Virus record (IMG/VR): IMGVR_UViG_3300050034_000098
Span: 1 to 64,000 of that record
Source of the DNA: a virus
DNA: 64,000 bases
Reading direction: 5' to 3' (one strand)
Made by a program: the position numbers and the translations under genes. Below are positions 3,127 through 60,216 of the stretch, one piece after another (the stretch's first letter is position 1; every line of letters begins with the position of its first letter). The notes beneath the pieces are model-generated. The model was given only the letters and a program-made list of their open reading frames with translations, searched no databases and was not told the DNA's origin.

Positions 3127-4227
3127 TTACGCAACTGGTACATCATATGTAAACATAAGATGTGCGCCAGTTTGTGGTCCACGTAATACATAGTTTTCAT
3201 AACTCATCATTGATTTATTTGTTAACAAACGAGTATTTGCATTTGGTTCATTAGCATCAGCCCACGTGAAGAATAAAGGACCATCATTAAACATCCATAC
3301 GCGATCAATCATCGACTGATTAAGCATCAGGATTTTATGAGTATATTTGGTAGGCGTAACTGCATCGGCTACTGGTCTAACAAATTTGCTTAACATAATA
3401 GGGAATGTTTTAACATAAGTGTTTAATGCAGGAACTTTCCAACCTGGTACGATTTCGCTTGTGATACTGTTTAAGTTGATTGTTCTATCACGTTCTTGTT
3501 TTACCAAAATATCATAAGTTGATGGATGCATAACAATTACATCAGGTTCAGCAGAATAATCAAGTCTAGCCATCTGTTGAGTGAATTTAGTATTAATTGC
3601 ATCAAATAAATTAGAACCAGCCGTAATGTTTGTAATATCAGTAATCTGTTCTAAGATACCGCAATATTCTAACGAAACCGTTTCATCATCTTCAACAGAG
3701 CTAGAAGCACCATTAAAGAAAGCATCTACTGTAACTCTATCAAAATCAACAATCATATCATTGTAATCTTTTACAACTAAATCTTCAAAAGAACCATAAC
3801 GTTCTTCATATCTACGTGCAAACCAATCATACTGAATGCTGTTACCGTATAATTTAACAAAGACTTTCTTCCAATTGTCTCTGCCGTAATCAGTATCGGT
3901 TGCCGTTTTGCTATAATCAGGTAATTGTGCAGTACCATTGCCAAATTTAGGATTCATTGCAACTGTATTTGAAGGAATCTTGTTTTGTTCGTTAAAGTTA
4001 TGAGGATAACCCATTGCTTCAACAGAATTCATATTTACTTGAATTGGGAAACTACGAAGTCTGTAATCATAAAGCGTTTTTTCATAATCACTAATTGAAA
4101 GTACATGACCTTCATTTGTATTAATAAAATCAGGAGCCGATGCACTAATTCTTTGAATTTTTGCACCACTTTCATAGCTCATTGCTACGCCAGCATGTAG
4201 TTTTCTACCTTGAATATCGTTACTCAT
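3127..4227 (-). CDS. Major capsid protein
   Basis: A protein of 366 aa, the expected size for an HK97-fold coat protein. It lies between the protease-scaffold gene and the connector, and a possible attenuating hairpin follows it. Features fitting the fold are an extended N-arm, a long helix around residues 145-170 (FEDLVVKDYNDMIVDFDRV) and a C-terminal beta segment (YVLRGPQTGAHLMFTYDVP). It has only one Cys. Assembles the icosahedral shell around the scaffold. The family call rests on order, length and overall pattern rather than a short motif. Confidence 0.8.
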   Translation of the reverse strand: MSNDIQGRKLHAGVAMSYESGAKIQRISASAPDFINTNEGHVLSISDYEKTLYDYRLRSFPIQVNMNSVEAMGYPHNFNEQNKIPSNTVAMNPKFGNGTAQLPDYSKTATDTDYGRDNWKKVFVKLYGNSIQYDWFARRYEERYGSFEDLVVKDYNDMIVDFDRVTVDAFFNGASSSVEDDETVSLEYCGILEQITDITNITAGSNLFDAINTKFTQQMARLDYSAEPDVIVMHPSTYDILVKQERDRTINLNSITSEIVPGWKVPALNTYVKTFPIMLSKFVRPVADAVTPTKYTHKILMLNQSMIDRVWMFNDGPLFFTWADANEPNANTRLLTNKSMMSYENYVLRGPQTGAHLMFTYDVPVA

Positions 4228-5297: not shown

Positions 5298-5606
5298 TTA
5301 TTTTTTCTTACAAGCACATTTTACTTTACTACCACAAGCCATTTTTTTAGTAGATGCACACTTCATATCTTTTGTAGCACACTTAACGTTTTTCATTGAT
5401 GCTTTCATTTTAGTATCACCACATTGTGATTTTACATGTTTTAAATTTGGATTAGATTTCTTTGCCGCAGGCGATGCATTTCTAGCTACCTTAGCCGCAG
5501 TTGCATCACCAACTTCTTTTGCTTTAGCTGGACTCATGCCTTTTTTCTCATATTCTTGTGCAATATTATTACTTACTTGGTTAAATCCTAAATGTTTTTT
5601 AGCCAC
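5298..5606 (-). CDS. Basic head-associated protein with Cys-rich tail
   Basis: A protein of 102 aa, GTG start behind AAGGAGTG. The N-terminal part has the 'RNASPAAKKSNPNLKHVK' pattern that I recognise from short basic proteins encoded next to portal genes in other phages; their function is not known to me. The C-terminal third is unusual: seven Cys separated by short Lys-rich steps (KCATKDMKCAS, KMACGS, KVKCACKKK). The protein is strongly positive and could bind DNA or metal. It is encoded between portal and protease-scaffold, so a virion or assembly role is likely. Confidence 0.7.
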   Translation of the reverse strand: MAKKHLGFNQVSNNIAQEYEKKGMSPAKAKEVGDATAAKVARNASPAAKKSNPNLKHVKSQCGDTKMKASMKNVKCATKDMKCASTKKMACGSKVKCACKKK

Positions 5607-6979: not shown

Positions 6980-8638
6980 TCACCTCCTATTTCCTAGGAA
7001 TTTACTGATAAAAAATCCCTTTGTTTTATCTTTCTTTTTATGCATATCAATTCCACCAAATCCAAATGATGCACCATTTTTTGAGCCACCCCAAATTCCA
7101 TTCGTTGCATCCCATAGAGCATCTAATAAGTTATCACTAGAACCTTTAGGAAATCTTCTCATTTCATCTAAAAGCTTTTTGTGTTCTAACAACATTTTTA
7201 TCCAACCATTTCTAATTGGAATGATGAGTGAACGTAGCTTAAATGCCTTGTCACGGTTCTGTGGTGGCTTGATTGGATCGACTGGTATATAAATGCCTTG
7301 GTCCATTCCTTTTCGTTCTATAAGGTCTTTTAATAGTATCTGAAAGACAACATCTTCTACGCGTACATATCTTAAAATATCATAATATTGAATAACATAA
7401 ATGATTAATTGGTCAATTACCTCATCTATAGGTTTCTTTTTAGCCCACGCTTCAAGAACATAATAATAATTATCAACTCCCTTGCCAATAACGATTATTG
7501 CAGAATCATCAGATTTACGTTTTGCAGTTGCCGCGGCATCAAACCCTATAAAGACATCAGTAATTTCAGGTAATTCTTCTGCTTTATATAAACTTCTTAG
7601 TAACCATTCTTCTTTTATTTCCCTTGACTCTTCTAATAATCCATCATTCATATATTCTGTTGCCCACGCATCATCTGTCATGCTTGCTTTTTTCTTCATT
7701 AACCAATAATACATTTCATCACCAAAACGACTCCATAGAACTTCTGTTCCTTTTATCATTTCAGCTTTATTTTCTTTATAAAAATTATCTGAATCTGCCG
7801 TTCTATTCTCGTTTTCTAAATCACTTCTTATATCTTCCCATTCTTTCCATAATTCACTATCAGAAAACTTAATTACTGCCTGGTATTTTTTAGTAACATA
7901 GTCTGAATATTGCACTTCTGTTAACATTTTATATAATAAACACGCATCATTAATTATAGTTCCTATAACAAATATACTACAATGCGGCTCACCTACTGGA
8001 ACTAGCACACTATTATACCAATTTTCTATTTTTAAACGCTGTTCTGCTGTATTACTATTCTGTTCAGACAAAATATCATCACAAATAATAACGGTTGGTC
8101 TTATTCCATTGATCTTAACCCCACGAGTTGCCGCACCTGCACCTTTAGAGGATAAGCAAACACCATTAGAGCACACTATCTTATCAGAAGTCCAAATTTT
8201 AGTACCAACTAAATTACCAAAATCTTCATTAAATTTTTCATCCATTTCAATAAATTGTCTAACATCATTAATTATTTGTCGACCAAGAGATCCTTCTGAT
8301 GAAACAACTAATATATTTTCAGTATGTTTATATGCTATACACCAAATTGGGAATACAAAATCAGCCCAAAATGATTTTTGATGACCACGAGGTGATACCT
8401 CTAGTGTATTTGTTGCAATGTCCTTGTCTCTCAATACAGTATTCTCTAGCTTTGTTGCAATATCAAAATGAAATTCACTTAAATTATCCCAATTTTCACG
8501 TTCGTGATTCCAAATATAGGTTTTAGTAAATTCAAGCAAAGAAAAACGACACCTCTCAATATCGGAAGTGTCGTCAATTTCTATATTATCTGTTTTTTTA
8601 TTTTTTATTACTTTCCTTAAATCGTCATCGAAGCTCAA
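6980..8638 (-). CDS. terL: Terminase large subunit
   Basis: A protein of 552 aa, the DNA-packaging motor. The ATPase domain has a deviant Walker A (SPRGHQKS, residues 82-89), Walker B with acidic tail (TVIICDDIL, 182-190) and a coupling-type segment (FVIGTIIND, 223-231). The RNase H-like nuclease domain has FIGFDAAATAKRKSDDSA (363-380, first catalytic Asp367), a second acidic site in VRVEDVVFQ and a third in SSDNLLDALWDA. The TTG start overlaps the stop of the upstream gene and has no clear Shine-Dalgarno sequence, so it is probably translationally coupled. The portal gene follows after 4 nt. Confidence 0.95.
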   Translation of the reverse strand: MSFDDDLRKVIKNKKTDNIEIDDTSDIERCRFSLLEFTKTYIWNHERENWDNLSEFHFDIATKLENTVLRDKDIATNTLEVSPRGHQKSFWADFVFPIWCIAYKHTENILVVSSEGSLGRQIINDVRQFIEMDEKFNEDFGNLVGTKIWTSDKIVCSNGVCLSSKGAGAATRGVKINGIRPTVIICDDILSEQNSNTAEQRLKIENWYNSVLVPVGEPHCSIFVIGTIINDACLLYKMLTEVQYSDYVTKKYQAVIKFSDSELWKEWEDIRSDLENENRTADSDNFYKENKAEMIKGTEVLWSRFGDEMYYWLMKKKASMTDDAWATEYMNDGLLEESREIKEEWLLRSLYKAEELPEITDVFIGFDAAATAKRKSDDSAIIVIGKGVDNYYYVLEAWAKKKPIDEVIDQLIIYVIQYYDILRYVRVEDVVFQILLKDLIERKGMDQGIYIPVDPIKPPQNRDKAFKLRSLIIPIRNGWIKMLLEHKKLLDEMRRFPKGSSDNLLDALWDATNGIWGGSKNGASFGFGGIDMHKKKDKTKGFFISKFLGNRR

Positions 8639-8787
8639 TTATCATCATTCATTTCTTGAAAACGTAATTTTTCTATTTTACGTTTTTTATTTGTATTATA
8701 ATTTCGCATTGCTTTGCGTTTTTTCTTTTCATCTAAATAATCTTCATAGTTATTATATTTACTACTATCTTTTACATCTTTAATCAA
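8635..8787 (-). CDS. Small basic protein before terL
   Basis: A protein of about 50 aa, Lys/Arg/Asn-rich, without a recognised domain. I chose the TTG at 8787 because AAAGGGG lies just upstream. An ATG at 8844 in the same frame would add 19 residues but has no ribosome site. It overlaps terL, suggesting coupling. Confidence 0.5.
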   Translation of the reverse strand: MIKDVKDSSKYNNYEDYLDEKKKRKAMRNYNTNKKRKIEKLRFQEMNDDN

Positions 8788-8824
8788 TTTTATATGTTCC
8801 CCTTTTACCCCAATTATAATGTTA

Positions 8825-9214
8825 TCAATCCCATAAACATCCAAAATAATCTATAAATTTTTGTTTTCCATCTTTAATCTTAGCAAAATACTTTTCTCTA
8901 TTCTCTTTAACCTCTGTTGTCTCTTTATAGTCTTGCCAATTGTTCCCATCTTGTAAATAACTATGAAAATCTATATCTTTTGGATTGTTTTTATAATCAT
9001 TATTAATTTCTTTAAATGCATAAATAATCTCATCTAAAACTTTATCCCATTCTTCTCTATCCATAAATTGTCCAGGACAACCGTACCTGTCCATATCTTT
9101 AAATTGTTGCACCGACCTATAAATTTCATTTGATAAATAGAAATCTAAGTCCCATAGATGTTCGCCTTTATATATTTTTCCTTTATCTCGTTTCATTCTG
9201 CCGCGTTTATTCAT
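8825..9214 (-). CDS. Hypothetical protein
   Basis: A protein of 129 aa with a basic N-terminus and many Asp, Tyr and Trp, including WDLDFYLSNEIYRSVQQFKD and a helical middle (REEWDKVLDEIIYAFKEIN). No known family recognised. It overlaps the end of the membrane-protein gene upstream and belongs to the operon feeding into terL. Confidence 0.65.
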   Translation of the reverse strand: MNKRGRMKRDKGKIYKGEHLWDLDFYLSNEIYRSVQQFKDMDRYGCPGQFMDREEWDKVLDEIIYAFKEINNDYKNNPKDIDFHSYLQDGNNWQDYKETTEVKENREKYFAKIKDGKQKFIDYFGCLWD

Positions 9215-9365
9215 TTTTATTTAGTTCCTTTCTAATAAAATCGCAAATAGCCCAGCCAACACAATACATACAAATTGCTAGTCCGATAATAATTGTAATA
9301 TCAGATAGACTACATACTAAAATAAATAATAGTCCAACAAATGTTTCAAAAATAATCTTAGTCAT
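9207..9365 (-). CDS. Small two-span membrane protein
   Basis: A protein of 52 aa with hydrophobic stretches at about residues 4-20 and 22-40 and a charged C-terminus (DFIRKELNKNE). The ATG overlaps the previous stop as TAATG. A holin role is possible for such a shape, but no lysin is nearby, so I leave it as an unknown membrane protein. Confidence 0.6.
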   Translation of the reverse strand: MTKIIFETFVGLLFILVCSLSDITIIIGLAICMYCVGWAICDFIRKELNKNE

Positions 9366-9634
9366 TAATTTTCTCCCTTTATCTTATCTATTAATTCATC
9401 TTCCCATTTTAAAATATAATAATTACTTTTATTCTTTTGTAATCTCCATGCTTTATACATATTTATTTTACGCGATTTTGCATTATCAAGATGATTAGTA
9501 TATACAGCATTACCATATTGGGTTTGCGTTAGCATCTTACCTTCGTAAAATATATCAAATCTCTTTCTAATTGCACCTGCTTCGAGTTTGAATTTTTCAA
9601 ATTTAGCTTTTATAGAATTATATTTATTATCCAT
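9365..9634 (-). CDS. Hypothetical basic protein
   Basis: A protein of 89 aa, Lys-rich, predicted helical then mixed (NAVYTNHLDNAKSRKINMYK). ATG behind AAAGGAGAATTTTA. Couples to the glycosyltransferase upstream by an 8-nt overlap. Function unknown. Confidence 0.6.
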   Translation of the reverse strand: MDNKYNSIKAKFEKFKLEAGAIRKRFDIFYEGKMLTQTQYGNAVYTNHLDNAKSRKINMYKAWRLQKNKSNYYILKWEDELIDKIKGEN

Positions 9635-10349
9635 TAAAATTCTCCTTTACCATATAGTGTTTTGGTTTACAATCTAGATTTACTAATAATTTATATCCTT
9701 TTTCTTTTGCCATTTCGCAAAAAACTTTATCTTCTCCCTGCGGATCTGAACTATATCTCACTCCATCTTTTAAACATTTCATTGGAATCATATAAACTGC
9801 CCCAGTTAAATCAACTTCTAATAATCCACTAGTAGGATATTTGTCCATATGTGCCATTCTGCCATCTTGAAATCTCATAAAATTACAAGGAGTTGTGCCG
9901 TCTACAGTTTTATTTGGTATATTTGGGATTGCACCAGCCACTATAGTTTTACTCCCTGCATAAGTTAATAAATCAGTAATAATTGTTTTTGGCACTACGA
10001 TATCAGAGTCAATTGATAACACATAATCAAAATTGCTATGCCACAATAAAGTTTCTTCAATTAATATATTCCTAATATCTGCCAAATGTTCATATCCATT
10101 TTTTCTATATTGCGTTCTAGTCTCGTCAGGAATATCCTTTTCATCACTTTTTACTATTTGTAAATATTTTTTAACATTCATATTGCCAACATATTCTTTT
10201 AGTAGGTTAAGTGTTCCATCATTTGAATCATTTTCCATAAAAAAACATTCGTAATTTGGATAATCAATATTATCAATAGCTTCTAAAAACTTAGGTAAAA
10301 TCCATTCCCTATTTCTTATACAACTTATAATCAATACCTTTGGATTCAT
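9627..10349 (-). CDS. Glycosyltransferase, GT-A fold
   Basis: A protein of 240 aa. The ATG at 10349 has AAAGGAG before it and starts the family's conserved MNPKVLIISCIRNRE; an upstream in-frame TTG lacks a ribosome site. The nucleotide-sugar-binding DxD is SIDSDIVV (about 125-132), and a cis motif GAVYMIPMKCLKDG plus the acidic GEDKVFCEMAKEKGY follow. It resembles phage and viral GT-A enzymes related to mannan polymerase-like transferases. It probably transfers a sugar to a virion or host target. Acceptor and sugar are not visible. Confidence 0.8.
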   Translation of the reverse strand: MNPKVLIISCIRNREWILPKFLEAIDNIDYPNYECFFMENDSNDGTLNLLKEYVGNMNVKKYLQIVKSDEKDIPDETRTQYRKNGYEHLADIRNILIEETLLWHSNFDYVLSIDSDIVVPKTIITDLLTYAGSKTIVAGAIPNIPNKTVDGTTPCNFMRFQDGRMAHMDKYPTSGLLEVDLTGAVYMIPMKCLKDGVRYSSDPQGEDKVFCEMAKEKGYKLLVNLDCKPKHYMVKENFNG

Positions 10350-10480
10350 TTTATTCTCCTTTATACTATATATTTTAGTGCTACAATCCAATCCTAGTCT
10401 AAATTACTCTACAACTTTGCCACTTTTTACATATAAATTTAATTATAGAATAACTTGTATGGGTTGTTAATTTTATATGT

Positions 10481-10660
10481 CTATTTTCTCTTTAAATTCA
10501 ATGCTTTTTGTTTTACATAGAAATCACAGCGTTTCATAATTTTTCTATTTAGGTATCCGTCTGTTCTTTTATTTAACCCTAATTGACAAAGATAATCATT
10601 TGTATAAATTAAGTTTTCACAGTTTCTACAGATCGTGTCTGTCATATAAATATCAATCAT
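10481..10660 (-). CDS. Small Cys-containing protein
   Basis: A protein of 59 aa. The ATG at 10660 overlaps the previous stop. Four Cys (CRNCENL, YLCQLG, KRCDFY) suggest a small zinc-binding fold with a basic C-terminus. No family recognised. Confidence 0.6.
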   Translation of the reverse strand: MIDIYMTDTICRNCENLIYTNDYLCQLGLNKRTDGYLNRKIMKRCDFYVKQKALNLKRK

Positions 10661-11003
10661 TATTTTTCTCCTTCTTTTGCCTATAAAAATACATTAATTT
10701 TTCTGCTGTCTCCATTAGTTCTTTTTTAAAAAAATAAACTCCTTTATAGGATCGTCCTAATTCTATAAAATCAATAGCTAATTCGCTTGCAAATCCTCTA
10801 TGAGTAAATCCAAATACAATACCAATATCTTCTCCATCAATAAATAGTTTATTAAATGTAATATTATCTGGTTTTTCAGTATAATAATTATTTTTATCTA
10901 AACAGTATTCTTGTAGTTCTTTTACATTAGAAATAATATGATTTTCTGCATTTTTATCATCAAAAGAACAATAAAAACCAATCTTAGATTTATTTGTTCT
11001 CAT
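10653..11003 (-). CDS. Hypothetical protein
   Basis: A protein of 116 aa, alpha/beta, with a central NITFNKLFIDGEDIGIVFGF segment and a C-terminal helix ending in a Lys-rich tail. It overlaps the upstream gene by 14 nt. No family recognised. Confidence 0.6.
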   Translation of the reverse strand: MRTNKSKIGFYCSFDDKNAENHIISNVKELQEYCLDKNNYYTEKPDNITFNKLFIDGEDIGIVFGFTHRGFASELAIDFIELGRSYKGVYFFKKELMETAEKLMYFYRQKKEKNND

Positions 11004-11631
11004 TCTTTTCTTTCCTTTCTTCTTTTTTAGTCCAATATTTACAACAAAAATCTTTCTTAACTAAATAGTTATTTTGCTTTTCATTCCAACAAGTTCTAAA
11101 ATTATTTAAGAACGATTCGCAAGTATCACAACATTTATTTTCTATAATGATTTCTTTTTCTTTCTTTTCTGTTAATTCTTTAATATATCCCATCATATAA
11201 ATTTTAAAAATACTATAAACATCTTCAATTGAATCACCACTAATCTGAATATAGCCATGAACACTCGCTCTAGCATAAATTGATCCATCTATATTATAAT
11301 TATTCTCTACCATATATTCTGTGAATACATCTAATAGTCCTTGGTAATATTTAATCTCTGAACTAATATTATCAAACATATAAATTGTTTCGATGCCTAC
11401 CATATATAATTTAGTATCTCTGTCATAACATAAATCAATATCATTCATACTATAAATATTCGCTTTGGTTGCACACATCTCCTCAGTCGATGTTACTCCC
11501 CATATAAATTTAACAGATCCACAATTGTACTCATTATCAATATAATCTGGATATTTATGTCTTAGCCATGCAACTTCTATTTCATATTTACTATTCTCAT
11601 ATAGCGTTATTATACCATCTAATAATTTCAT
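10990..11631 (-). CDS. Hypothetical protein with Cys-rich C-terminus
   Basis: A protein of 213 aa, ATG behind GGGAGATAAACA. The first 160 residues look globular alpha/beta. The C-terminal part carries clustered Cys (CCDTCESF, TCWNEK, FCCKYW) spaced like a small zinc-binding domain, followed by a Lys/Glu tail. The two halves could be a fusion. Function unknown. Confidence 0.6.
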   Translation of the reverse strand: MKLLDGIITLYENSKYEIEVAWLRHKYPDYIDNEYNCGSVKFIWGVTSTEEMCATKANIYSMNDIDLCYDRDTKLYMVGIETIYMFDNISSEIKYYQGLLDVFTEYMVENNYNIDGSIYARASVHGYIQISGDSIEDVYSIFKIYMMGYIKELTEKKEKEIIIENKCCDTCESFLNNFRTCWNEKQNNYLVKKDFCCKYWTKKEERKEKNENK

Positions 11632-11634
11632 TGT

Positions 11635-11931
11635 TTATCTCCCATATCTATACCATCCTTCAATAGATATATCTTTTTTATTATATAAATTTACAGCATC
11701 ATCAATAGATTCTTTAAACACACAATTATCAATATACCATTCATTTTCATACAAAGTAAGTTGACATATCTCAAATCTATTCAAACAATAAATTAATACC
11801 ACAACCGATTTTGGACGTATTTCATTGTGACATTTACATTTTAAAACACTAGCATTGAAAAAATCCATAAGTTCTGCATAAATAAATAATGGAGCATCAA
11901 TTACTTTTGGTTTTGCAATTCGTCTACTCAT
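11635..11931 (-). CDS. Hypothetical protein
   Basis: A protein of 98 aa, basic N-terminus, one CKCH motif at residues 33-36 and a mixed C-terminal half. Lies 3 nt upstream of the next gene in a tight operon. No family recognised. Confidence 0.55.
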   Translation of the reverse strand: MSRRIAKPKVIDAPLFIYAELMDFFNASVLKCKCHNEIRPKSVVVLIYCLNRFEICQLTLYENEWYIDNCVFKESIDDAVNLYNKKDISIEGWYRYGR

Positions 11932-11943
11932 TTTATATCTCCT

Positions 11944-12246
11944 TTACTCAGCCCAATCTAATATATCTTGTAAATCAATTTCATTTGTATCAACTATAAA
12001 AAATTCACAGTGCGGATAACTTAATTTTTCTATAAATCTTTCTTTTTCATGTTGAGAAGATATGTTCCAAGAATGATGTGTTATGGTTTCATAATCTGTT
12101 ACTATTGGTTCTGAATTAGTAAGCTGATACCACCATGATTTACTTTCATATTCTTCTTGTCTTTTTAATCTTTCTTTTTTAATATTTTGTATTGCTAATT
12201 TAGACTTGTTAATCCAAAAATCTTTTTCAGTAATTAAAATCTTCAT
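11944..12246 (-). CDS. Hypothetical protein, first gene of a leftward operon
   Basis: A protein of 100 aa with a Lys/Arg-rich helix (residues 12-35), a Trp-containing middle and an acidic end. AAAGGAGAAAT precedes the ATG, and a consensus promoter lies 35 nt further upstream. Function unknown. Confidence 0.6.
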   Translation of the reverse strand: MKILITEKDFWINKSKLAIQNIKKERLKRQEEYESKSWWYQLTNSEPIVTDYETITHHSWNISSQHEKERFIEKLSYPHCEFFIVDTNEIDLQDILDWAE

Positions 12247-12280
12247 TTTATTTCTCCTTTTATTTTGTTTCTCTATTTAT

Positions 12281-12309
12281 AGTATAGTCTCTTATTTTGG
12301 TGGTGTCAA
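12281..12309 (-). promoter_or_regulatory. Sigma-A type promoter
   Basis: Read leftward: -35 TTGACA (12304-12309), 17-bp spacer, -10 TATACT (12281-12286). It should drive the small-gene operon from 12246 and may reach the first glycosyltransferase and virion genes. Confidence 0.8.
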
Positions 12310-12713
12310 TACAAATTATTAATATGATACGGTGTTTTTACCATAACAATAAATAATCACTTATCAATCTGTTTGAATGGTAATGAATTACAGATTACTT
12401 TCGTTCATGAATTTAATATGAATGATAAGAAAGATAGTTCCTACTGTTCTATATTATTTTATTTACTTATATGGTTTTACTATACTACTAACGCGTTACC
12501 ACTTGTTAATAATTTCGAGTATAACTCTTCATTATTTGTTTTATTCTTTATAATTATTTAATATATAAAAATGTTAAATACCAATATAGAGAGAGGAGTA
12601 CACTTTCGAAATAATACCCATAACCCTATATATATCAGGTACTTACAGACTTTTACAAAGGTAAACTATTGAAAAATACGTATGCAATTAAAGGTAAAGT
12701 TTTTTTACGTTTG
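12310..12713. other. Non-coding interval of 404 bp
   Basis: No supported gene. It contains two AAAGGTAAA copies (from 12657 and 12690) and a weak rightward frame without a ribosome site. It separates the end of the RepL-like gene from the promoter on its left. No good terminator seen. Confidence 0.5.
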
Positions 12714-13223
12714 TTATTCCAATCCAATATATTTATAGTTTTTAAACATATCAACTAGTGTTTTATTAACTCTCTGTCCTCTGCAAAAAATATAAGGATT
12801 TGCATAATACTGATAGTAATGTCCAACCATAACTCTAGCAAAGACTTTATTTGATACTAACTCATCCATACATTTTGTAATAGTTGGTTTACTATAATTT
12901 GTAATTTCTATAATATCTTCATTCATAATTGGTTTGCCATTACTATATGACACAATGTTAGAAGTATATCTGATATATGACTGCAAAACAATAGCTACAG
13001 CTAATGATGCCCCTCTTAAATCTTTTGCAATATATCTTATATCTAAAAATAATTTTGTAAATTGTCTATGCTCGTTAATGAGAACTGTTTCATTTAAATA
13101 ATCAGTAGTTTCTTTTCTTCTAATATAGTCCCCTTTTTTAATACAGTCTACAATTTCTCCTGTACTTCTATCAACTACTACCTTGTTTTCTGTATCATAT
13201 ATTTCTTTTATTTTTGATGACAA
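12714..13223 (-). CDS. RepL-like winged-helix regulator
   Basis: A protein of 169 aa, TTG start behind AAAGGGGATAATATA. The middle is a helix-turn-helix (ITNYSKPTITKCMDELVSNK, residues 107-126) followed by a wing with GHYYQYYANPYIFCRGQRVN. This resembles the C-terminal part of RepL replication proteins and phage regulators related to them, where an Asn-Pro plus Phe/Gly-Arg motif recurs. It stands alone behind its own promoter, 5' hairpin and leader peptide, which fits a dose-controlled regulator better than a replication initiator. The true initiator candidate is elsewhere (35233). Confidence 0.65.
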   Translation of the reverse strand: MSSKIKEIYDTENKVVVDRSTGEIVDCIKKGDYIRRKETTDYLNETVLINEHRQFTKLFLDIRYIAKDLRGASLAVAIVLQSYIRYTSNIVSYSNGKPIMNEDIIEITNYSKPTITKCMDELVSNKVFARVMVGHYYQYYANPYIFCRGQRVNKTLVDMFKNYKYIGLE

Positions 13224-13243
13224 TATATTATCCCCTTTTTATT

Positions 13244-13300
13244 TTATTTTCCCTTAAGCCATGTAACCAATATAATTAATAAAATGATTAATACAAACAT
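13244..13300 (-). CDS. 18-residue hydrophobic leader peptide
   Basis: MFVLIILLIILVTWLKGK has AGAAAGGAGATTATT in front and ends 20 nt before the RepL-like start, between that gene and its promoter. It is a single membrane span with a basic end, and could be a regulatory leader or a tiny membrane peptide. Confidence 0.5.
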   Translation of the reverse strand: MFVLIILLIILVTWLKGK

Positions 13301-13326
13301 AATAATCTCCTTTCTTCTAATTACAA

Positions 13327-13353
13327 GGCTAATCACAAGAAAAAAGATTAGCC
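13327..13353 (-). promoter_or_regulatory. 5' leader hairpin / operator candidate
   Basis: Perfect 8-bp inverted repeat GGCTAATC / GATTAGCC with an 11-nt loop, starting at about +10 of the predicted transcript. No T-run follows in either direction, so it is not a terminator. Either an mRNA 5' stem or a repressor operator. Confidence 0.55.
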
Positions 13354-13366
13354 ATGACATATATAT

Positions 13367-13395
13367 AATATATCACAGCTAAAATAATTTGTCAA
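13367..13395 (-). promoter_or_regulatory. Sigma-A type promoter for the RepL-like gene
   Basis: Read leftward: TTGACA (13390-13395), 17-bp spacer, TATATT (13367-13372). The -35 overlaps the last codon of the upstream glycosyltransferase. Confidence 0.8.
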
Positions 13396-14219
13396 ACATT
13401 TAATTTTCTATTTACAATCCCATTATAGTAAAATTTATCTTCGGTATACAACATTACATCAACGCCAACATTTAAATAAGCCCACTTCCAACAAAAATAA
13501 TCCCAACTTTTGTTATATAATTCCATTTCTTCGTCATGCCCAATCAGTCCAAATGTCTTATGATTGTAATGATATACAAAAACGTCATCTACTACAAATA
13601 ATGAATATCCTTTAGTTCTAAGTGTTAAACTTAAATCTGCATCATCTGCTCCACAAACGCAACCTTCATCAAGACCATGTAATTCTTTTAGTAATTCTGT
13701 TTTCATTAATAGGCAACAACCACTTAAATATTTAGCTTCGATGCAATTTCCTTTTCTATAGATCTTATTTCCTTCGTTAAAAATATAATAATTATCGGTA
13801 TATGGAAAATGAAATCCATGTTCTCCAAAAAATGTAACATAGTCTTGTTTATTTCCAATTCCACTACCAATAGGAGCAATTGCACCAACTTTATATTTTG
13901 TTGATAGCTTTTCAAATCGTTCTATTAATTCTCTATCCCAATTATAATAAACTAATAAGTCATTATTTAACAAACAAACGTATCTACTATCGGTTAGTGC
14001 TATTCCTTGATTAACTGCCTTTGCAAATCCTTCATTTTTGTCATTTAAAATGTATTTATTAGCTATAGATTTAATATATTCAATCGTTTCATCAGAAGAA
14101 CCGTTATCAACCATAATTATTTCATATGATGAATTACTATATTTCTTTAATTCAGTTATACATTCTTTCGTATATTTTAAATTATTATAAGTTACGATTA
14201 TAACTGATAAATCAAGCAT
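13392..14219 (-). CDS. Family 2 glycosyltransferase
   Basis: A protein of 275 aa. N-terminal LSVIIVTYNNLKYTKECI and VDNGSSDETIEYI are the classic GT2 nucleotide-binding strands. CLLNNDLLVY is the DxD-type site, and GADDADLSLTLRTKGY carries the catalytic-region ED-like acidic pair. It most resembles rhamnosyl/N-acetylglucosaminyl-type transferases acting on polysaccharides. It is one of three GT2 genes within 3 kb, with small helper-like genes between them. Acts in the cytoplasm; acceptor unknown. Confidence 0.88.
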   Translation of the reverse strand: MLDLSVIIVTYNNLKYTKECITELKKYSNSSYEIIMVDNGSSDETIEYIKSIANKYILNDKNEGFAKAVNQGIALTDSRYVCLLNNDLLVYYNWDRELIERFEKLSTKYKVGAIAPIGSGIGNKQDYVTFFGEHGFHFPYTDNYYIFNEGNKIYRKGNCIEAKYLSGCCLLMKTELLKELHGLDEGCVCGADDADLSLTLRTKGYSLFVVDDVFVYHYNHKTFGLIGHDEEMELYNKSWDYFCWKWAYLNVGVDVMLYTEDKFYYNGIVNRKLNV

Positions 14220-14427
14220 GTTTTGTATCCGTTAATTTTAAAAATTCTAAATGACTCAGTTCGTTTGATCTAACATAATCTAAAACAGTATTATATTCAT
14301 CAAAATATACTTTTTTAAGCGATACTTTTCTGACATAGCCCCAATATGATCTGTCTGTTTCATTAATTAATACTGTTTTACCAAATTTTTGTAAACATTT
14401 TAAATAATTACTAATATAATTTGTCAT
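14212..14427 (-). CDS. Hypothetical protein in the glycosyltransferase block
   Basis: A protein of 71 aa, mostly beta (GKTVLINETDRSYWGYVRKV), with some likeness to a small SH3-like barrel. It overlaps the GT2 gene by 8 nt. Function unknown. Confidence 0.55.
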   Translation of the reverse strand: MTNYISNYLKCLQKFGKTVLINETDRSYWGYVRKVSLKKVYFDEYNTVLDYVRSNELSHLEFLKLTDTKHA

Positions 14428-14431
14428 TTTA

Positions 14432-14677
14432 TTATTCTCCTTCCACTAGTTTTAAAAAATCACTATATAATACTCTTTTAGTTTTAATAAAATAGTCACC
14501 TTCCCATAATTCTCGTCTATATTCTATAACGACATTGTTAAAAAGAATATACTTGATATGAAAATAAGTAAGTGAATCAAAATTCTTCTCGACATAAAAA
14601 CTTCTATATTTATATTTTTTTATTTGTTTATATTCTTTTTTCCATTCTTTTAATCTATTTCTTAAATTTTTAAACAT
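14432..14677 (-). CDS. Hypothetical basic protein in the glycosyltransferase block
   Basis: A protein of 81 aa, very rich in Lys, Tyr and Phe, without a recognised domain. Immediately upstream (1 nt) lies the next glycosyltransferase. Confidence 0.55.
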   Translation of the reverse strand: MFKNLRNRLKEWKKEYKQIKKYKYRSFYVEKNFDSLTYFHIKYILFNNVVIEYRRELWEGDYFIKTKRVLYSDFLKLVEGE

Positions 14678-14678
14678 T

Positions 14679-15374
14679 TTATTCTCTCCATTCTTTTAAT
14701 ACTGGATTTTTATCTGTCATACTGAGATAATGTGACATAAAACACAATTTACCTTGAGGATCTTTTTCTAAATAGAAGTCTTGTTTGGCTTTAATTTCTT
14801 CTGGCGACTTAGCATAGCCATAATGTTTAATTCTAAAGCCACTATAAGTTCCTTTCTTTTGTAAAACCTCTTGAGGAATTGAACCACAATGTAAAACTGT
14901 ATTTCTCCAATTATAATTTACGTTTTTATCATATCTAAACATTCTTGGTCCTTTAGGCGGATTCCAATATCCATCCATTCTAACATGTTTAGTGTCCCAC
15001 CAAAAATGGTTAAACTCAAAACTAAACCAATCGTAGACAGAGTTGTTTTCTAATAGCTTTCGAATATTTTTTTCACCATTTTGATCTAAAATCTCATCAG
15101 CATCTAATGCAAGAATATATTCGGGATTTGTTTGCATTGTTAAGTTAAATAATTCATATCTAGGTCTACTTTCATTAATAATAAACGATTCTCCGCTTAC
15201 TTTCTTAATAATTTCAACGTTTTTATAACTTTTTGCTATTTCAAAGCTATTATCTGTGCTATTATCATCTAAAATAACAAAATTATCACAATATTTACTT
15301 GCAGAATCTAACATTTCTCGCAAAAAATGTCTTTCTTCATTCTTCATTAATAACATCATTGTTAATTTTGGCAA
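14679..15374 (-). CDS. Family 2 glycosyltransferase (WaaE/KdtX-like)
   Basis: A protein of 231 aa, TTG start with AAGGAGAT 7 nt upstream. It has the family opening MLLMKNEERHFLREMLDS, the strand FVILDDNSTDNSFEIAKS, and the DxD LALDADEILDQ at about residues 89-99. The C-terminal Trp/Gly-rich stretch (MDGYWNPPKGPRMFR) resembles acceptor-site sequences of such enzymes. Same operon as the other glycosyltransferases. Confidence 0.85.
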   Translation of the reverse strand: MPKLTMMLLMKNEERHFLREMLDSASKYCDNFVILDDNSTDNSFEIAKSYKNVEIIKKVSGESFIINESRPRYELFNLTMQTNPEYILALDADEILDQNGEKNIRKLLENNSVYDWFSFEFNHFWWDTKHVRMDGYWNPPKGPRMFRYDKNVNYNWRNTVLHCGSIPQEVLQKKGTYSGFRIKHYGYAKSPEEIKAKQDFYLEKDPQGKLCFMSHYLSMTDKNPVLKEWRE

Positions 15375-15491
15375 CTAATTCATCTCCTTGTTTTTGTATT
15401 TAATATTACAAGTAAACCAGAAAAGCAAAGCAAATATAATAGCTGATGCAACTGTATCGAAAAATGACATTGCAACTGCTATGAAATACAA
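15375..15491 (-). CDS. Small membrane peptide
   Basis: A 38-residue frame from a TTG at 15491 contains one strong membrane span (SFFDTVASAIIFALLFWF) and a Lys-rich end. It fills the gap between two glycosyltransferase genes exactly, but lacks a well-spaced ribosome site. An overlapping frame from an ATG at 15499 is less protein-like. Confidence 0.4.
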   Translation of the reverse strand: MYFIAVAMSFFDTVASAIIFALLFWFTCNIKYKNKEMN

Positions 15492-15493
15492 TA

Positions 15494-16246
15494 CTATCCA
15501 TAAATTCTATTATCTCCCATCATATCTGCAAATTTTTCATCAAAGTGTTTCTTGCCTATTTGAAATTGTTGGTTTAACCAAATATTATCTTTACAACTGC
15601 CTTGGTGATAATGAACTATTGTTGAATCTGGACAGTACATAACTTTAAATCCATTACGTCTAGCATTATAAGAATATGAGGTCTCTTCAAAGTAAAAAAT
15701 AAGGTATTCGTCTAATAATCCTAGTACTTCAATATTAGATCTTTTAATTAAATAGCATGCACCACACACACTAATACATTCAATCGGTTCTGTATATCCA
15801 ATGTTGTCTGCCATCCAGCCCCTTATTTTTGGATTCTTGTTAGTTCCAACTACGCCACATCCAACTAATTTATTATTTTTATTAATTAAGCGATTACCTA
15901 CTACTGCAACTTTATCATCATATTCAAATAATCTAATCATATTATCTAACCAATAGTGGTGAATTGCCAACGTGTCAGAATTCAACATTAAAATATATGA
16001 ACCTGCGGTTGAGTTTATCCCTTGATTAATTGCTCTGCCATATCCAACATTTTCAAGATTCTTAATTGTTTTTACAGTTGGGAATTTTTTATTAATTAAT
16101 TCTAATGTATTATCATTGCCATTATCAACAACAGTAATATCAATAGTACAATTATTTTTATATTTTAAAAGTGATTCAATACAGTTTAGTGTTAGGCTAC
16201 TTGTGTTATAGGTTGGAATTATAATTGATACACTTGGATTTGACAC
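15494..16246 (-). CDS. Family 2 glycosyltransferase
   Basis: A protein of 250 aa, GTG start behind GGGAGATAAATAAA. N-terminal VSIIIPTYNTSSLTLNCI, VDNGNDNTLELI and MLNSDTLAI (DxD-like NSD) define the GT2 fold. CGACYLIKRS and FYFEETSYSYNARRNGF match the acceptor/base region. Same general class as the gene at 13392, though not a close copy. Confidence 0.87.
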   Translation of the reverse strand: MSNPSVSIIIPTYNTSSLTLNCIESLLKYKNNCTIDITVVDNGNDNTLELINKKFPTVKTIKNLENVGYGRAINQGINSTAGSYILMLNSDTLAIHHYWLDNMIRLFEYDDKVAVVGNRLINKNNKLVGCGVVGTNKNPKIRGWMADNIGYTEPIECISVCGACYLIKRSNIEVLGLLDEYLIFYFEETSYSYNARRNGFKVMYCPDSTIVHYHQGSCKDNIWLNQQFQIGKKHFDEKFADMMGDNRIYG

Positions 16247-16251
16247 TTTAT

Positions 16252-16461
16252 TTATCTCCCCTTTATATTTAAATATTTACTATAGTATTCACTATCATAT
16301 AGAAATGGCAGACTAATTGAAAAGGTCCAAATTAGAACTAATAATATTTTACAAAAAATTTCATCACCTTGAGATATATGAAACATTAAATATGATAGTA
16401 TAATAAATGAAATAACTGATATAATTATAAATCTCTTATAATATATTTTATCTTTTACCAA
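16252..16461 (-). CDS. Two-span membrane protein
   Basis: A protein of 69 aa, TTG start behind AAGGGG. Hydrophobic segments at about residues 11-27 and 37-54 with a Lys/Arg-rich N-terminus. It neighbours the glycosyltransferases and could help them act at the membrane, but nothing proves it. Confidence 0.55.
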   Translation of the reverse strand: MVKDKIYYKRFIIISVISFIILSYLMFHISQGDEIFCKILLVLIWTFSISLPFLYDSEYYSKYLNIKGR

Positions 16462-17180: not shown

Positions 17181-17810
17181 TTATTTATGGACACCTTTCA
17201 TGAACTCTATAAAATATTCATCGTCACTTAGTTTATTAAAAATATCAGCATACAATGTTTTATCAGTCTGTTGTACCTCATCCATAATGAATTTAACTAT
17301 TTCGTAAACGCGGGTAAAATCAAATATTTTTTCTTGTATAACGCTTATTGAATTAACTAATTGAGATTTCCTAGATAGCATCTTCTCAAGAGTAGAACTA
17401 AAACTATTAATCTCTTTTGCAATAACTAAAACATCAGAATCTTTCTTTATCATTTTGTCTAATGAATCCATACATGCCTGAATAGAATCTATCTGATTGT
17501 CTACTATTTCCATTTGAGATAAATATTCTTTATATACGTTTAATTGAGAATTATTCTTTCTGTTGTCTGTCCTGGTTGGAAACTCTCTTTTTACATAATT
17601 GTATAAAGCTGTTCTACTTATTTTTTTATCATCGGGCATATGCTTGTTGTTTATTTCCTCTAGAGTCTCATTAATAGATAATCCTGAGTATATTAATTTG
17701 CCAACAATATCATGTAAACCATATCTATCTAATGTTGGCATTTGGGTATCAAACCCATTTGATGGTTGTACTAAATCGGTCTTTCGATGAGTCGGTGGAA
17801 CTGCTCCCAA
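17181..17810 (-). CDS. Candidate terminase small subunit
   Basis: A protein of 209 aa; the TTG at 17810 has AAGGAG 8 nt upstream, and a GTG at 17819 inside the ribosome site is less likely. Residues about 30-70 form a helix-turn-helix (SINETLEEINNK, ISRTALYNYVKREF). Residues 75-160 are long helices fit for oligomerising, then an acidic C-terminus. DNA-binding head plus helical stalk is the layout of many small terminases, and no other gene in the window fits. It is 8.5 kb from terL, which is unusual, so a different DNA-binding role is possible. Confidence 0.45.
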   Translation of the reverse strand: MGAVPPTHRKTDLVQPSNGFDTQMPTLDRYGLHDIVGKLIYSGLSINETLEEINNKHMPDDKKISRTALYNYVKREFPTRTDNRKNNSQLNVYKEYLSQMEIVDNQIDSIQACMDSLDKMIKKDSDVLVIAKEINSFSSTLEKMLSRKSQLVNSISVIQEKIFDFTRVYEIVKFIMDEVQQTDKTLYADIFNKLSDDEYFIEFMKGVHK

Positions 17811-17822
17811 AGCTATCACTCC

Positions 17823-18644
17823 TTAATTTACTATGTTTCTAAACTCTCCATAATATTCTTCTTCTGCGTTTTTCCTTGCTTGAATCGCATCTTGTTTATC
17901 TGTGAAATATCCTAAAGTAATACGTTCTCCATTTAGCCCAATCCTTGCCCACCACTTATTACCATTTTTAATAAAAGAAACACCGCTACAGCCACTTGTA
18001 TTAATTGAATGCAAGGACGAGTTCATACAATTTTGTTGGTTTGTACAAATTCTTAAATTCTGCTTCCTGTTATCAAATGTATCATGATTTATATGATCGA
18101 CCACTAGTTCTTTTGGGTAACCCATAACACATCGGTGGATTATTCCTAATGTTGCCGATCGAACGTAAACCCCTTTTTTATTTCCACTACAACCCGTTTG
18201 TATTCCCCACTGTGCTTTTGATAGTTTTTCAACATCCTCTTTATCTATTTTTACAATATACTCTTTGTCAGTTTGCTTATTTTTAATAATAAGTTCTGTA
18301 TAATATTTTAAATAATTATAACTATTAATCCAAACCTTATTCTTAGTTATCTCTTTATTTATTATTTTACCACACCTCCTAAACTGGGCAAGATGAGATG
18401 CACATAAATAGTTTCCATAATCTCTACTATATGAAATATATTGTTTTGAATTACAGACACTACACTTTCCACTATTGATTTCTCTATTTAACTTAGCATT
18501 ACCCCTATCCTTTTTTCTCGATAAGTCAATTTCTCCATATTTCTTATATAAACGACGACACGCATCGCACAGTAATTCTTTTGTGTCTATGTTCCTATAT
18601 ACTTTATAACCAGATCCACATTTTACGCAAAGAGCATTTTTCAA
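17823..18644 (-). CDS. HNH homing endonuclease with AP2 domain
   Basis: A protein of 273 aa; the TTG at 18644 has AGGTGG 8 nt upstream. Two N-terminal zinc-finger-like CxxC sets (CVKCG..CDAC; CSVC..C) precede the HNH core VVDHINHDTFDNRKQNLR (about residues 145-165). An AP2 DNA-binding domain follows (GNKWWARIGLNGERITLGYF to the end). Free-standing endonucleases of this type copy themselves into neighbouring DNA. It sits upstream of the small-terminase candidate and has its own promoter. Confidence 0.92.
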   Translation of the reverse strand: MKNALCVKCGSGYKVYRNIDTKELLCDACRRLYKKYGEIDLSRKKDRGNAKLNREINSGKCSVCNSKQYISYSRDYGNYLCASHLAQFRRCGKIINKEITKNKVWINSYNYLKYYTELIIKNKQTDKEYIVKIDKEDVEKLSKAQWGIQTGCSGNKKGVYVRSATLGIIHRCVMGYPKELVVDHINHDTFDNRKQNLRICTNQQNCMNSSLHSINTSGCSGVSFIKNGNKWWARIGLNGERITLGYFTDKQDAIQARKNAEEEYYGEFRNIVN

Positions 18645-18677
18645 TTTATTTACCACCTATTTTTATATTCTAGTATT

Positions 18678-18706
18678 AGTATAATATTTTTTAATTATAT
18701 TGTCAA
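18678..18706 (-). promoter_or_regulatory. Sigma-A type promoter
   Basis: Read leftward: TTGACA (18701-18706), 17-bp spacer, TATACT (18678-18683). It leads the HNH gene, the small-terminase candidate and probably the glycosyltransferase block. Confidence 0.82.
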
Positions 18707-41666: not shown

Positions 41667-41978
41667 ATGAAATTTAAAGAATTAGACGGATATATTAAAA
41701 ATATTGATAATGGTGTTGAATTAACAGATAAAGAACTTGAAGATTTTCAAGAATTCTCAATAACAGATTATGAAGGAGAACAACATAGATGGACACAAGA
41801 CGTTGAATCGATTATTCCATATAATAAAAGATTATTTAGATTAACTTGGTCACGAGGGCTAACGGAAATGTGCGAATCGTATTATTGCGACCAGCCAATT
41901 GAAGTTGAAAAGGTTATAACAACAAAAACTATTGAAGTTATTGAATACGTTCCAATTAAAAAGGAGGATAGCAAATGA
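41667..41978 (+). CDS. Hypothetical protein
   Basis: A protein of 103 aa. The ATG at 41667 follows AAAAGGAGAGATAAT. Acidic helix, then HRWTQDVESIIPYNKRLFRL and a Val/Ile-rich Pro end. No family recognised. Couples to the radical SAM gene. Confidence 0.6.
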   Translation: MKFKELDGYIKNIDNGVELTDKELEDFQEFSITDYEGEQHRWTQDVESIIPYNKRLFRLTWSRGLTEMCESYYCDQPIEVEKVITTKTIEVIEYVPIKKEDSK

Positions 41979-42826
41979 TGGATATAGAAAAGAATAGAAA
42001 TAGAGGTAATTATACATTTGCTAACATAAATCTTTTAGGAAAATGTAATGCAAATTGTTATTTTTGTCTAGGAAAAGATATACCAGAACTGTTAAATAAA
42101 CATAATCAAGAAAAGGTACATTGGTCTAAGTGGAATAATTTTGATAAGTTTTTAGATAGATGTAAGGTAGAGGGAATTAAAAAGCTTTATCTTACAGGAC
42201 AAAATACAGATGCGTTATGCTATAAATATTTTGATGAATTTGTCGACTATATTCAGTCTAGTGGTTTCGTACTTGGTATTCGTACAAATGGATATTTATT
42301 AAAAGATCATGTTAATGCTGTGAGAAAACTACAAGATGAAGTTGGATTGTCAGCACATTCTCTAAATCCTGAAACTAATTATAAAATAATGAAACGCAGA
42401 GATATTCTTGATTGGAAATCCATAATTCCATCAGTTAAGTCTAAAACAAATACAATTAGAGTTGCAACAGTTGTGAATCGCTATAACGCTGATGAATTTG
42501 AATCGGTTATGAAATATTTGTCAGAAATAGACGAAATTAAATATATTCAAGCAAGACGCATTTCTACAGATATTAGGAAAGATGAATTAATGCCAGATAT
42601 CGAAATTTATGAAAATGTTTATCAAAAAATGATTAGTAAGCATAAGATTTATGGAGATTTTTATGGAGCACAGTTGGTAAATATGTTTGGTAAGGAAGTT
42701 TGTTTTTGGAGAACTGTTGAAACAAGTGCAAATAGTTTAAATTATTTTACCGATGGTACTTGTTCTGATAACTACTTCGTTGTTGAAGGGTATTTAAAGA
42801 ACTACAAAAAGGAGGATAATAAATAA
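41975..42826 (+). CDS. Radical SAM enzyme
   Basis: A protein of 283 aa. CNANCYFC (Cys24, Cys28, Cys31) is the CxxxCxxC site for the [4Fe-4S] cluster that splits S-adenosylmethionine. KKLYLTGQNTDAL replaces the usual GGE-type SAM motif, and VLGIRTNGYLL, LSAHSLNP and IRVATVVN are the following barrel strands. Four further Cys lie outside the motif, three of them in the last 90 residues, but no clear second-cluster motif is seen. The nearest general resemblance is to MoaA-like enzymes. Substrate unknown. SD AAAGGAGGATAG precedes ATGATG. Neighbours give no pathway. Confidence 0.88.
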   Translation: MMDIEKNRNRGNYTFANINLLGKCNANCYFCLGKDIPELLNKHNQEKVHWSKWNNFDKFLDRCKVEGIKKLYLTGQNTDALCYKYFDEFVDYIQSSGFVLGIRTNGYLLKDHVNAVRKLQDEVGLSAHSLNPETNYKIMKRRDILDWKSIIPSVKSKTNTIRVATVVNRYNADEFESVMKYLSEIDEIKYIQARRISTDIRKDELMPDIEIYENVYQKMISKHKIYGDFYGAQLVNMFGKEVCFWRTVETSANSLNYFTDGTCSDNYFVVEGYLKNYKKEDNK

Positions 42827-48818: not shown

Positions 48819-49598
48819 ATGCCAATACCAAAGAAAAAACGTATTAAAAAGAAAGAAGATGAAAGAAATTCATTTACTAAAAATAGAATAATTGTCCACG
48901 AAGACTATTTAGAAGTAATAACCTATACGCATCAAAGCAAAGAAAATGGAACATTTTTGGTAGACTTAGACATGCTCGAGTTTATAAAAACCCACAAATG
49001 CAGAAAAGCATCCGCTGGTTATATACTATTCGGCAATAGTAATGCCTTATTGCATAGGTTCATAACAAAAGCAAAGAAAGGAGAAAAGGTAGATCATATA
49101 AATAGAAATAGATCAGACAATAGAAAATCTAATTTAAGAATATGTACTGATTTAGAAAATTCTAGAAATAGAGATAAGGATAAAAAAGACAGAAGTTCTA
49201 GTTATAAAGGAACATTTTATGTAAAGAAAAATGAAGGATGGGGTTGTGGAGTCTGGGTTCTTGGTAAATGGATAGGATTTGGAGCATATTCAACGGAACT
49301 AGAGGCGGCATATATCTATAATATTAATGTAGGTAAATATTTTGGAGAATTTTCAGTATACAATAAGATTCCACAAGAAGATATCAATAGATTAAAGAAA
49401 ATGAAAATAGAAACATTACAAGAAAAAAGAAGATCATATTCAAAATATCCTAATGTTACATATAATGTTTGTAAAAAATGTTGGGTATGGAGAAAAATGA
49501 TAAAAGGTAAACTTTATAATAAACAATATTTTAAAACAGCAGAAAGTGCTTATAAGGCTTTTCTTAAATTTGAGGAGGAACTAAAAATATGCCAATGA
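48819..49598 (+). CDS. HNH homing endonuclease with AP2 domains
   Basis: A protein of 259 aa. The HNH core is VDHINRNRSDNRKSNLRICT (about residues 88-108). An AP2 unit follows (GVWVLGKWIGFGAYSTELEA), and a weaker AP2-like repeat is at the end (CWVWRKMIKGKLYNKQYF). Same design as the gene at 17823, in a replication-gene neighbourhood between helicase-linked genes and the exonuclease. Probably a mobile free-standing endonuclease. Confidence 0.9.
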   Translation: MPIPKKKRIKKKEDERNSFTKNRIIVHEDYLEVITYTHQSKENGTFLVDLDMLEFIKTHKCRKASAGYILFGNSNALLHRFITKAKKGEKVDHINRNRSDNRKSNLRICTDLENSRNRDKDKKDRSSSYKGTFYVKKNEGWGCGVWVLGKWIGFGAYSTELEAAYIYNINVGKYFGEFSVYNKIPQEDINRLKKMKIETLQEKRRSYSKYPNVTYNVCKKCWVWRKMIKGKLYNKQYFKTAESAYKAFLKFEEELKICQ

Positions 49599-59875: not shown

Positions 59876-60216
59876 TTTATATTAGCTTGCCATTTACAGG
59901 TTGTGAAGAACAAAGTAAAAATAGATCAGCAGAAATTGCATTGCAGATTTTAAGAGAAATTCCAAATGCAACAGTAATTAATCCAGTCTTAAATTTTAGT
60001 TTTTGTGACAATTCGGTTTCATATAATAAATGTATTCAAATGTGTCTTGACTTATTATCAAGATGTGATATAATTATATATGAAGGGAAAAGTAAAGGGG
60101 TTATTCTCGAACTCGAGAATGCTAAAAAAGAATGGGTTAAAATTATTAAGTACGAAAAAGATTTAAGTGAACTAAAAGAATATACAAATAAATACGAATT
60201 AAAGGAGAATAAATAA
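59869..60216 (+). CDS. DUF4406 / deoxyribosyltransferase-like protein
   Basis: A protein of 115 aa; the TTG at 59869 is 8 nt after GGAGGTG. LIYISLPFTGCEEQS, then NPVLNFSF and LLSRCDIIIYEGKSKGVILE, follow the Rossmann-like pattern of the nucleoside 2-deoxyribosyltransferase relatives called DUF4406. Possible nucleotide or nucleoside handling; no activity is certain. Confidence 0.7.
   Translation: MLIYISLPFTGCEEQSKNRSAEIALQILREIPNATVINPVLNFSFCDNSVSYNKCIQMCLDLLSRCDIIIYEGKSKGVILELENAKKEWVKIIKYEKDLSELKEYTNKYELKENK
60047..60074 (+). promoter_or_regulatory. Promoter candidate inside the DUF4406-like gene
   Basis: TTGACT (60047-60052), 16-bp spacer, TATAAT (60069-60074). It would give an extra transcript for the Ntn hydrolase gene. 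Confidence 0.45.

Follow-up and report, generated by a model that had tools for sequence, protein, structure and literature searches.

Why should a phage carry four glycosyltransferase genes between its TerS-like gene and TerL, and what would the enzymes modify? The question is raised by a block at positions 9627-16246 of the virus record IMGVR_UViG_3300050034_000098, of which the first 64,000 of 83,923 bases are here called the window. A preliminary description of this DNA reported four leftward transferases there and left three targets open: virion decoration, surface polysaccharide change and DNA glycosylation. The genes and their coordinates are borne out, and the targets can now be ranked: virion decoration gains from the presence of a related gene pair in the head modules of other phages, while DNA glycosylation and classical O-antigen conversion are disfavoured; the original interpretation is partly supported. 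The reading we favour, to which we give about an even chance of being right, is that the block glycosylates a virion protein.

The four enzymes: Each of the four open reading frames (ORFs), labelled GT1 to GT4 here as distinct from the enzyme family GT2, scores above at least one Pfam gathering threshold (4/4).
9627-10391, minus strand: GT1, Anp1-like (Anp1 3.7e-12; PF00535 2.7e-8)
13392-14219, minus strand: GT2, GT2-family, a paralogue of GT4 (PF00535 5.3e-28)
14679-15374, minus strand: GT3, SunS/GmaR-like, GT2-family (PF13704 2.1e-9)
15494-16246, minus strand: GT4, GT2-family, soluble (PF00535 7.8e-22)

PF00535 exceeds its cut-off at four positions of the record, which are these four genes, and profile comparison confirms the four-transferase observation as real and far beyond chance. 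An earlier division into one GT-A and three GT2 enzymes proved not meaningful, all four being GT2-like by Pfam. GT2 and GT4 share 31% identity (E 3e-19), and a hydropathy scan predicts no transmembrane (TM) segment in any of the four. The TTG listed as the start of GT1 is questionable: 42 bases downstream, an ATG has a better ribosome-binding site and is probably the true start. In an alignment with 10 bacterial sequences, GT1 keeps DSD and GED and GT3 keeps DADE, which we take to be DxD-type metal-binding motifs; at a like place, judged by sequence and unaligned, GT2 reads NND and GT4 NSD. The nearest solved relatives of GT3 in the PDB are GmaR (7e-6), an enzyme that modifies flagellin, and 7msk, a SunS-type peptide glycosyltransferase. 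Single-sequence AlphaFold2 models were too poor for a fold search (mean pLDDT 40.5 for GT3 and 34.7 for GT1). In 50,697 phage records, tblastn returned no match to GT1 or GT3; the named-phage search gave 18 records for GT2 and 62 for GT4. GT4 is the reciprocal best match of a transferase of phage GX15bay (L005:11818-12771), and its matches in bacterial genomes reach 34-35% identity only (2 of 380 genomes at E 1e-28). MT835535.1 (L004), a phage-labelled match of GT2 and GT4, looks by its ORFs like a bacterial capsule locus and was excluded from the comparison.

GT1 and GT3 resemble the halves of one bacterial protein: GT3 finds a match of some kind in 292 of the 380 genomes of Negativicutes, the class of Mitsuokella, but matches better than 1e-28 in only 10, the next being 1.6e-13. 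All ten strong matches fall in the C-terminal half of proteins of ~500-560 residues. GT1 aligns over its full length with the N-half of the same ~510-residue bacterial proteins (10/10 loci, E 4e-11 to 5e-7), and GT3 with the C-half (10/10 loci, E 2e-43 to 2e-32); neither half aligns with GT2 or GT4 below 0.005. Profile hidden Markov models (HMMs) built for each half were searched against 379 ORFs, dozens of other transferases among them. The N-half profile gave clear outside matches only to GT1 (48 bits) and to a single bacterial enzyme with one domain, and the C-half profile gave GT3 162 bits, far above the next score (54 bits). A phylogenetic tree unites GT3, the viral homologues and the bacterial C-halves in a single group (100/99) and sets them off from four other transferases of the bacterial operons; the place of GT3 inside the group is not settled because its branch is long. 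That GT1 and GT3 arose by a simple split of a fused gene is not proven, because the nearest relative of GT1 is the single-domain bacterial enzyme in L086 (41%).

Usually, the bacterial two-domain gene comes last in a row of four transferase genes and adjoins two DUF6385 genes. The DUF6385 pair is confirmed by Pfam in L084, where one of the proteins has a DNRLRE domain, and in L077, where a DUF6385 protein is rich in Thr (19%); L078-L082 and L085 resemble these two loci by size, order and first residues only, L076 ends at a contig edge, and L083 has two transferases only, with no DUF6385 gene seen. One partner enzyme of the operon matches SunS at 65 bits, under the cut-off of 350. The operon (L076-L085) is possibly a spore- or cell-surface glycoprotein system. 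No paper on DUF6385 was found in the open-licence literature searched. A gene with a SipL/SPOCS domain lies near the operon in L080. Flagellin glycosylation, suggested by the match of GT3 to GmaR, was considered and rejected, flagellin genes being near the bacterial homologues in 0 of 11 genomes.

The pair recurs in other phages: A query made from GT3 aligned with five bacterial C-halves retrieved 41 loci from viral_contigs. The C profile matches 36 of them at E 1e-5 (no match at this threshold in L117, L119, L126, L128 and L129), and both profiles match on the same strand in 13, exactly those that score at least 100 bits with the C profile; neither profile matched any of 29 other phage loci used as a control. 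A single fused protein carries both domains in L091, L094, L097, L103 and L108; the other loci have them as separate proteins. BLAST adds a GT1-like gene in L098 and L099 at a stricter setting and in L102 at a looser one; in these three loci, related to GX15bay, a GT4-like and then a GT3-like gene lie upstream of TerL. Genes were mapped one by one in the best 20 of the 41 loci, and flanks were compared with PHROGs in 10 of the 13 (L089, L091, L092, L094, L095, L096, L100, L101, L103 and L108; L090, L093 and L097 were left out). Virion families appear in the flanks of 7 of the 10: the cassette stands between a preceding portal gene and a following capsid gene in L089, L092 and L101, follows a capsid gene in L095, L100 and L103, and lies ahead of the major tail gene in L096. 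The pair in the window is likewise on one strand, between the TerS-like gene and TerL, with GT1 at 48 and GT3 at 162 bits; its spacing of 4.3 kb is wider than in the other loci with both genes, and the N score of GT1 is far under the best there. By head-module type we count about four lineages, the window included, rather than 13 independent cases; L092/L093 and L098/L099 are near duplicates. Matches in named phages are few (two records for the GT3 homologue of L089, namely GX15bay and a marine virus; six for the fused protein of L103; three for the fused bacterial protein of L084), and the cassette therefore appears almost confined to uncultured phages in the collections searched. In L100, a 658-residue B12-binding radical SAM protein whose C-terminal part is Anp1-like is encoded (9629-11605) beside the head-module relative of GT3.

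A proposed pathway acting on the virion: The enzymes are soluble, they have relatives that act on proteins, and the cassette keeps turning up among head genes, which together points to a virion protein as the acceptor. We infer the enzymes' activity, their sugars, the acceptor and the order of action as follows. The block would encode a pathway for protein glycosylation, by which a virion protein is decorated as the head or tail is assembled, with host nucleotide sugars as donors; GT3 (SunS/GmaR-like) and GT1 (Anp1-like) would begin the glycan and lengthen it, and GT4 and GT2 would attach further sugars. The use of host sugars had been proposed earlier on the grounds that no sugar-nucleotide gene was seen, and this is consistent with the Pfam scans, which found none among 69 distinct phage ORFs, the small ORFs lying mostly outside the scan. 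A broader proposal, in which we place somewhat less than even confidence, is that an Anp1-like plus SunS/GmaR-like cassette, split or fused, is common to bacterial surface-protein glycosylation operons and at least four phage lineages, in which it has entered the head module at different points and coats the virion with glycans. To our knowledge, virion glycosylation has been reported for few phages, and we know of no rule that predicts it from sequence; judged by titles or the start of abstracts, the open-licence literature searched contained no description of such a paired cassette in head modules. If the proposal is true, glyco-shielding would be a common trait of uncultured phages rather than a speciality of actinobacteriophages, and a recurring gene pair addressed inside the head module would be a rule that predicts virion glycosylation from sequence and names candidate phages in many environments. 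The pair would also link the phage enzymes to the bacterial operon beside the DUF6385 proteins.

Architecture and predicted expression: The preliminary description placed the block just upstream of the head genes; more exactly, it lies between the TerS-like gene and TerL. The other features of the region are as follows.
6980-8638, minus strand: TerL, downstream edge of the cargo site (phrog_38 6e-74)
8635-9634, minus strand: four small overlapping ORFs linking GT1 to TerL (overlaps of 1-20 bases; overlap with TerL, 4)
9207-9365: small ORF with two predicted TM segments (hydropathy scan)
10442-10470, minus strand: near-consensus promoter (11/12) just upstream of GT1
12281-12309, minus strand: near-consensus promoter (11/12) within the 467-base gap that precedes the unit leading to GT1 and TerL
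12714-13223, minus strand: ORF of 169 residues
13348-13382, minus strand: hairpin terminator directly 3' of GT2, a 15-pair stem followed by a T-run
14212-14677, minus strand: two small ORFs of unknown function (71 and 81 residues) packed between GT3 and GT2
16252-16461, minus strand: small ORF with two predicted TM segments (hydropathy scan), 5 bases upstream of GT4
17181-17819, minus strand: TerS-like gene, upstream edge of the cargo site (27% to L016:7734-8420, E 3e-20)
18678-18706, minus strand: near-consensus sigma-70 promoter (11/12) upstream of the HNH-TerS-GT4-GT3-GT2 unit

The two ORFs with paired TM segments agree with the small membrane proteins noted earlier. The 169-residue ORF had been called a regulator, a name that finds no backing in Pfam (at 0.01), PHROGs or NCBIfam, none of which gave a family match; the 81-residue ORF likewise has no NCBIfam match. 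Genes of the block are tightly packed, most with ribosome-binding sites. GT4, GT3, GT2 and the small ORFs among them are separated by gaps of at most 5 bases and form one unit with TerS that ends at the hairpin terminator (-16.8 kcal/mol, z -4.4, equalled by 0 of 200 shuffles), and GT1 heads a series of overlapping genes of which TerL is the last. The coding strand has four near-consensus promoters between 8500 and 19500, a number reached in 1 of 200 shuffles. From this layout of promoters and terminator, the enzymes could be made before or together with the late genes. An ORF at 17823-18656 on the minus strand resembles a homing endonuclease (HNH_3 by Pfam).

The record, its relatives and the cargo site: A direct repeat of 127 bases is common to both ends of the record, which is therefore probably a complete circular assembly, and a tail-tube-like protein reads across the joint. 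The leftward genes start at ~23.5 kb and include, in this order, the TerS-like gene, the transferase block, TerL and the portal and capsid genes; the run resumes from the right end of the record, where the tape measure, tail fibre and endolysin genes follow. Replication and nucleotide genes occupy the right arm, on the plus strand. The capsid assignment (3127-4227) rests on position and relatives because the protein has no PHROGs match. TerL matches in named phages are distant (194 records, all below 60% identity, the best listed 32.5%), and close relatives in viral_contigs were reached through the capsid protein and the TerL pair. TerL identity is 53-64% in L016, L017, L018 and L019, L018 being one contig with L013, and the capsid alignment led to 11 viral_contigs loci at 44-53% identity, L013 included. 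It also led to prophages in two genomes, those of Anaerovibrio slackiae (47%) and Mitsuokella multacida (45%). Both belong to the class Negativicutes, and the host of the phage therefore probably lies in or near that class. As single-protein scans of viral_contigs, TerL, GT3, GT4 and GT1 found no relative, nor did the TerL-pair scan of genome_contigs; an alignment of seven TerL sequences was too divergent to serve as a scan query. The G+C content here is 29%, well below the 37-53% of the relatives' loci.

A TerS-like gene lies upstream of TerL in 11 relatives, at distances from 0.1 kb (L041) to 7.4 kb (L017) against 8.5 kb here (tblastn boundaries); this comparison excludes L044 and L019, and L047/L048 duplicate L040/L042. 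PF00535 matches none of 12 related records, eight of them at least 64 kb long, as against four matches here, and none in the 4.5-kb record of L019. Searches of the relatives' loci with the eight other proteins of the block gave no match for any. Given the lack of PF00535 in relatives and the variable interval, we read the block as acquired cargo in a variable TerS-TerL interval.

Weighing the readings: Several observations count against virion glycosylation. With PF00535 genes in 0 of 13 capsid or terminase relatives, the block is dispensable; the host-type promoters and the terminator part GT4-GT3-GT2 from TerL, so that late expression is not required. PHROGs matched nothing in the tested flanks of L091, L094 and L108, and 16-kb loci from phages of ~40 kb would often include head genes anyway. 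The bacterial relatives do not adjoin flagellin genes (0/11). No acceptor was identified: by sequence, the capsid protein lacks a Ser/Thr-rich tail, and tail fibre J and a 271-residue protein are weak candidates by their Ser/Thr content.

The main rival, a serious one although less likely in our view, holds that the enzymes modify host surface glycans or proteins, thereby blocking superinfection or hiding receptors. GT4 and GT2 weakly match the GtrB-like family phrog_841 over their N-terminal part, host-type promoters would permit early expression, and the DUF6385 proteins beside the bacterial homologues look surface-exposed. The phage group is linked to Negativicutes, bacteria with a lipopolysaccharide outer membrane. 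Against these points stand the lack of TM segments in the four enzymes, the absence of a flippase or polytopic glucosyltransferase from the block, and the recurrence of the pair inside other phages' head modules. Less probable still, in our judgement, is that the block is passive or decaying cargo, or a set that benefits the lysogen without a role in the particle. Its absence from all 13 relatives, the hypervariability of the interval and the lack of matches to the eight other proteins in the relatives' loci would fit such cargo, but the four frames are intact, GT1 and GT3 keep their DSD, GED and DADE family motifs, and the genes are tightly packed, most with ribosome-binding sites. Glycosylation of phage DNA is very improbable: some phage DNA glycosyltransferases (TAGT) lie in clusters with GT2 enzymes, according to PMC13216743, so that the fold alone is no bar, but the idea is disfavoured because no precursor gene was detected (a PF00303 hydroxymethylase-type gene in 0 of 1 record, the control being found in 9 of 14 genomes), the thymidylate synthase is of the ThyX type and a dUTPase is present, the 69 Pfam-scanned ORFs (small ORFs mostly outside the scan) contain no methylase or TET/JBP family, and the transferases are encoded among virion genes rather than replication genes.

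Other features of the genome: Between the portal gene and a protease/scaffold-like gene, 5298-5606 on the minus strand encodes a small Lys/Cys-rich protein of 102 residues, whose relative in L013 (65% identity over 84 residues) has a Cys/Lys-rich C-terminal end. S-glycosylation of this protein was considered and dropped, as the L013 relative, from a phage without PF00535 transferases, has such a tail too. At the same place, L016 (12952-13737, Ser+Thr 30%) and L013 (8410-8991, 23%) encode a Thr-rich protein, perhaps a capsid decoration protein, of which no counterpart was seen in the window. On the plus strand, the ribonucleotide reductase encoded at 54890-58135 contains an intein and a LAGLIDADG-like domain. 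On the same strand, the radical SAM protein of 41975-42826 scores best in NCBIfam with prokaryotic viperin (61 bits, below the cut-off of 180), and the product of 60216-60770, near ThyX and the dUTPase, has a proteasome-subunit-like match (7e-6). An ORF at 48819-49598 (plus strand) and two near the record end (L003 16642-17415 and 19038-19682) have a GIY-YIG or HNH look by eye; two homing-endonuclease-like ORFs sit among the tail genes.

Comparison with known systems: The gtrABC cassette of O-antigen conversion consists of a membrane-anchored GtrB, a flippase and a polytopic transferase; here, the four enzymes have no TM segment and the largest TM count in the block is two, and a classical cassette of this kind is disfavoured on predicted topology. 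The T-even DNA glucosyltransferases are also phage-encoded sugar transferases, but no hydroxymethylase is present here. SunS (TIGR04195) matches GT3 in part (E 1.2e-6), the score of 27.7 bits lying far below the cut-off of 350 and thus outside that family. The four-transferase/DUF6385 operon of Negativicutes contains GT1-like and GT3-like domains in an enzyme of ~510 residues; it differs in that they form one fused protein, the partners bear TPR repeats and the operon is chromosomal. GX15bay (MK557849) has GT4-like and GT3-like genes in the same order in a transferase cluster just upstream of TerL; however, its TerL is unrelated (no BLAST match at 0.01), it has no N-HMM match, and its region holds seven annotated transferases and a methyltransferase. 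Virion glycosylation itself is evidently not a general trait, since staining of ten phages revealed no glycoprotein (PMC12894461). It has been described for the mycobacteriophages Che8 and Rita (Freeman et al. 2023, as cited in PMC11256854 and PMC12619734); the related phage Maravista has transferase genes near the 3' end of its genome (PMC11256854), and glycans are reported on the C-termini of capsid and tail tube subunits (PMC12619734). The enzymes here differ from those of the mycobacteriophages in that GT1 and GT3 matched 0 records and none of the 18 records matched by GT2 or the 62 matched by GT4 has Mycobacterium as its first word, Che8's presence in the collection being unchecked. What the two have in common is phage-encoded glycosyltransferases whose proposed outcome is sugars on virion proteins, and the capsid and tail-tube glycosylation of mycobacteriophages is the closest precedent.

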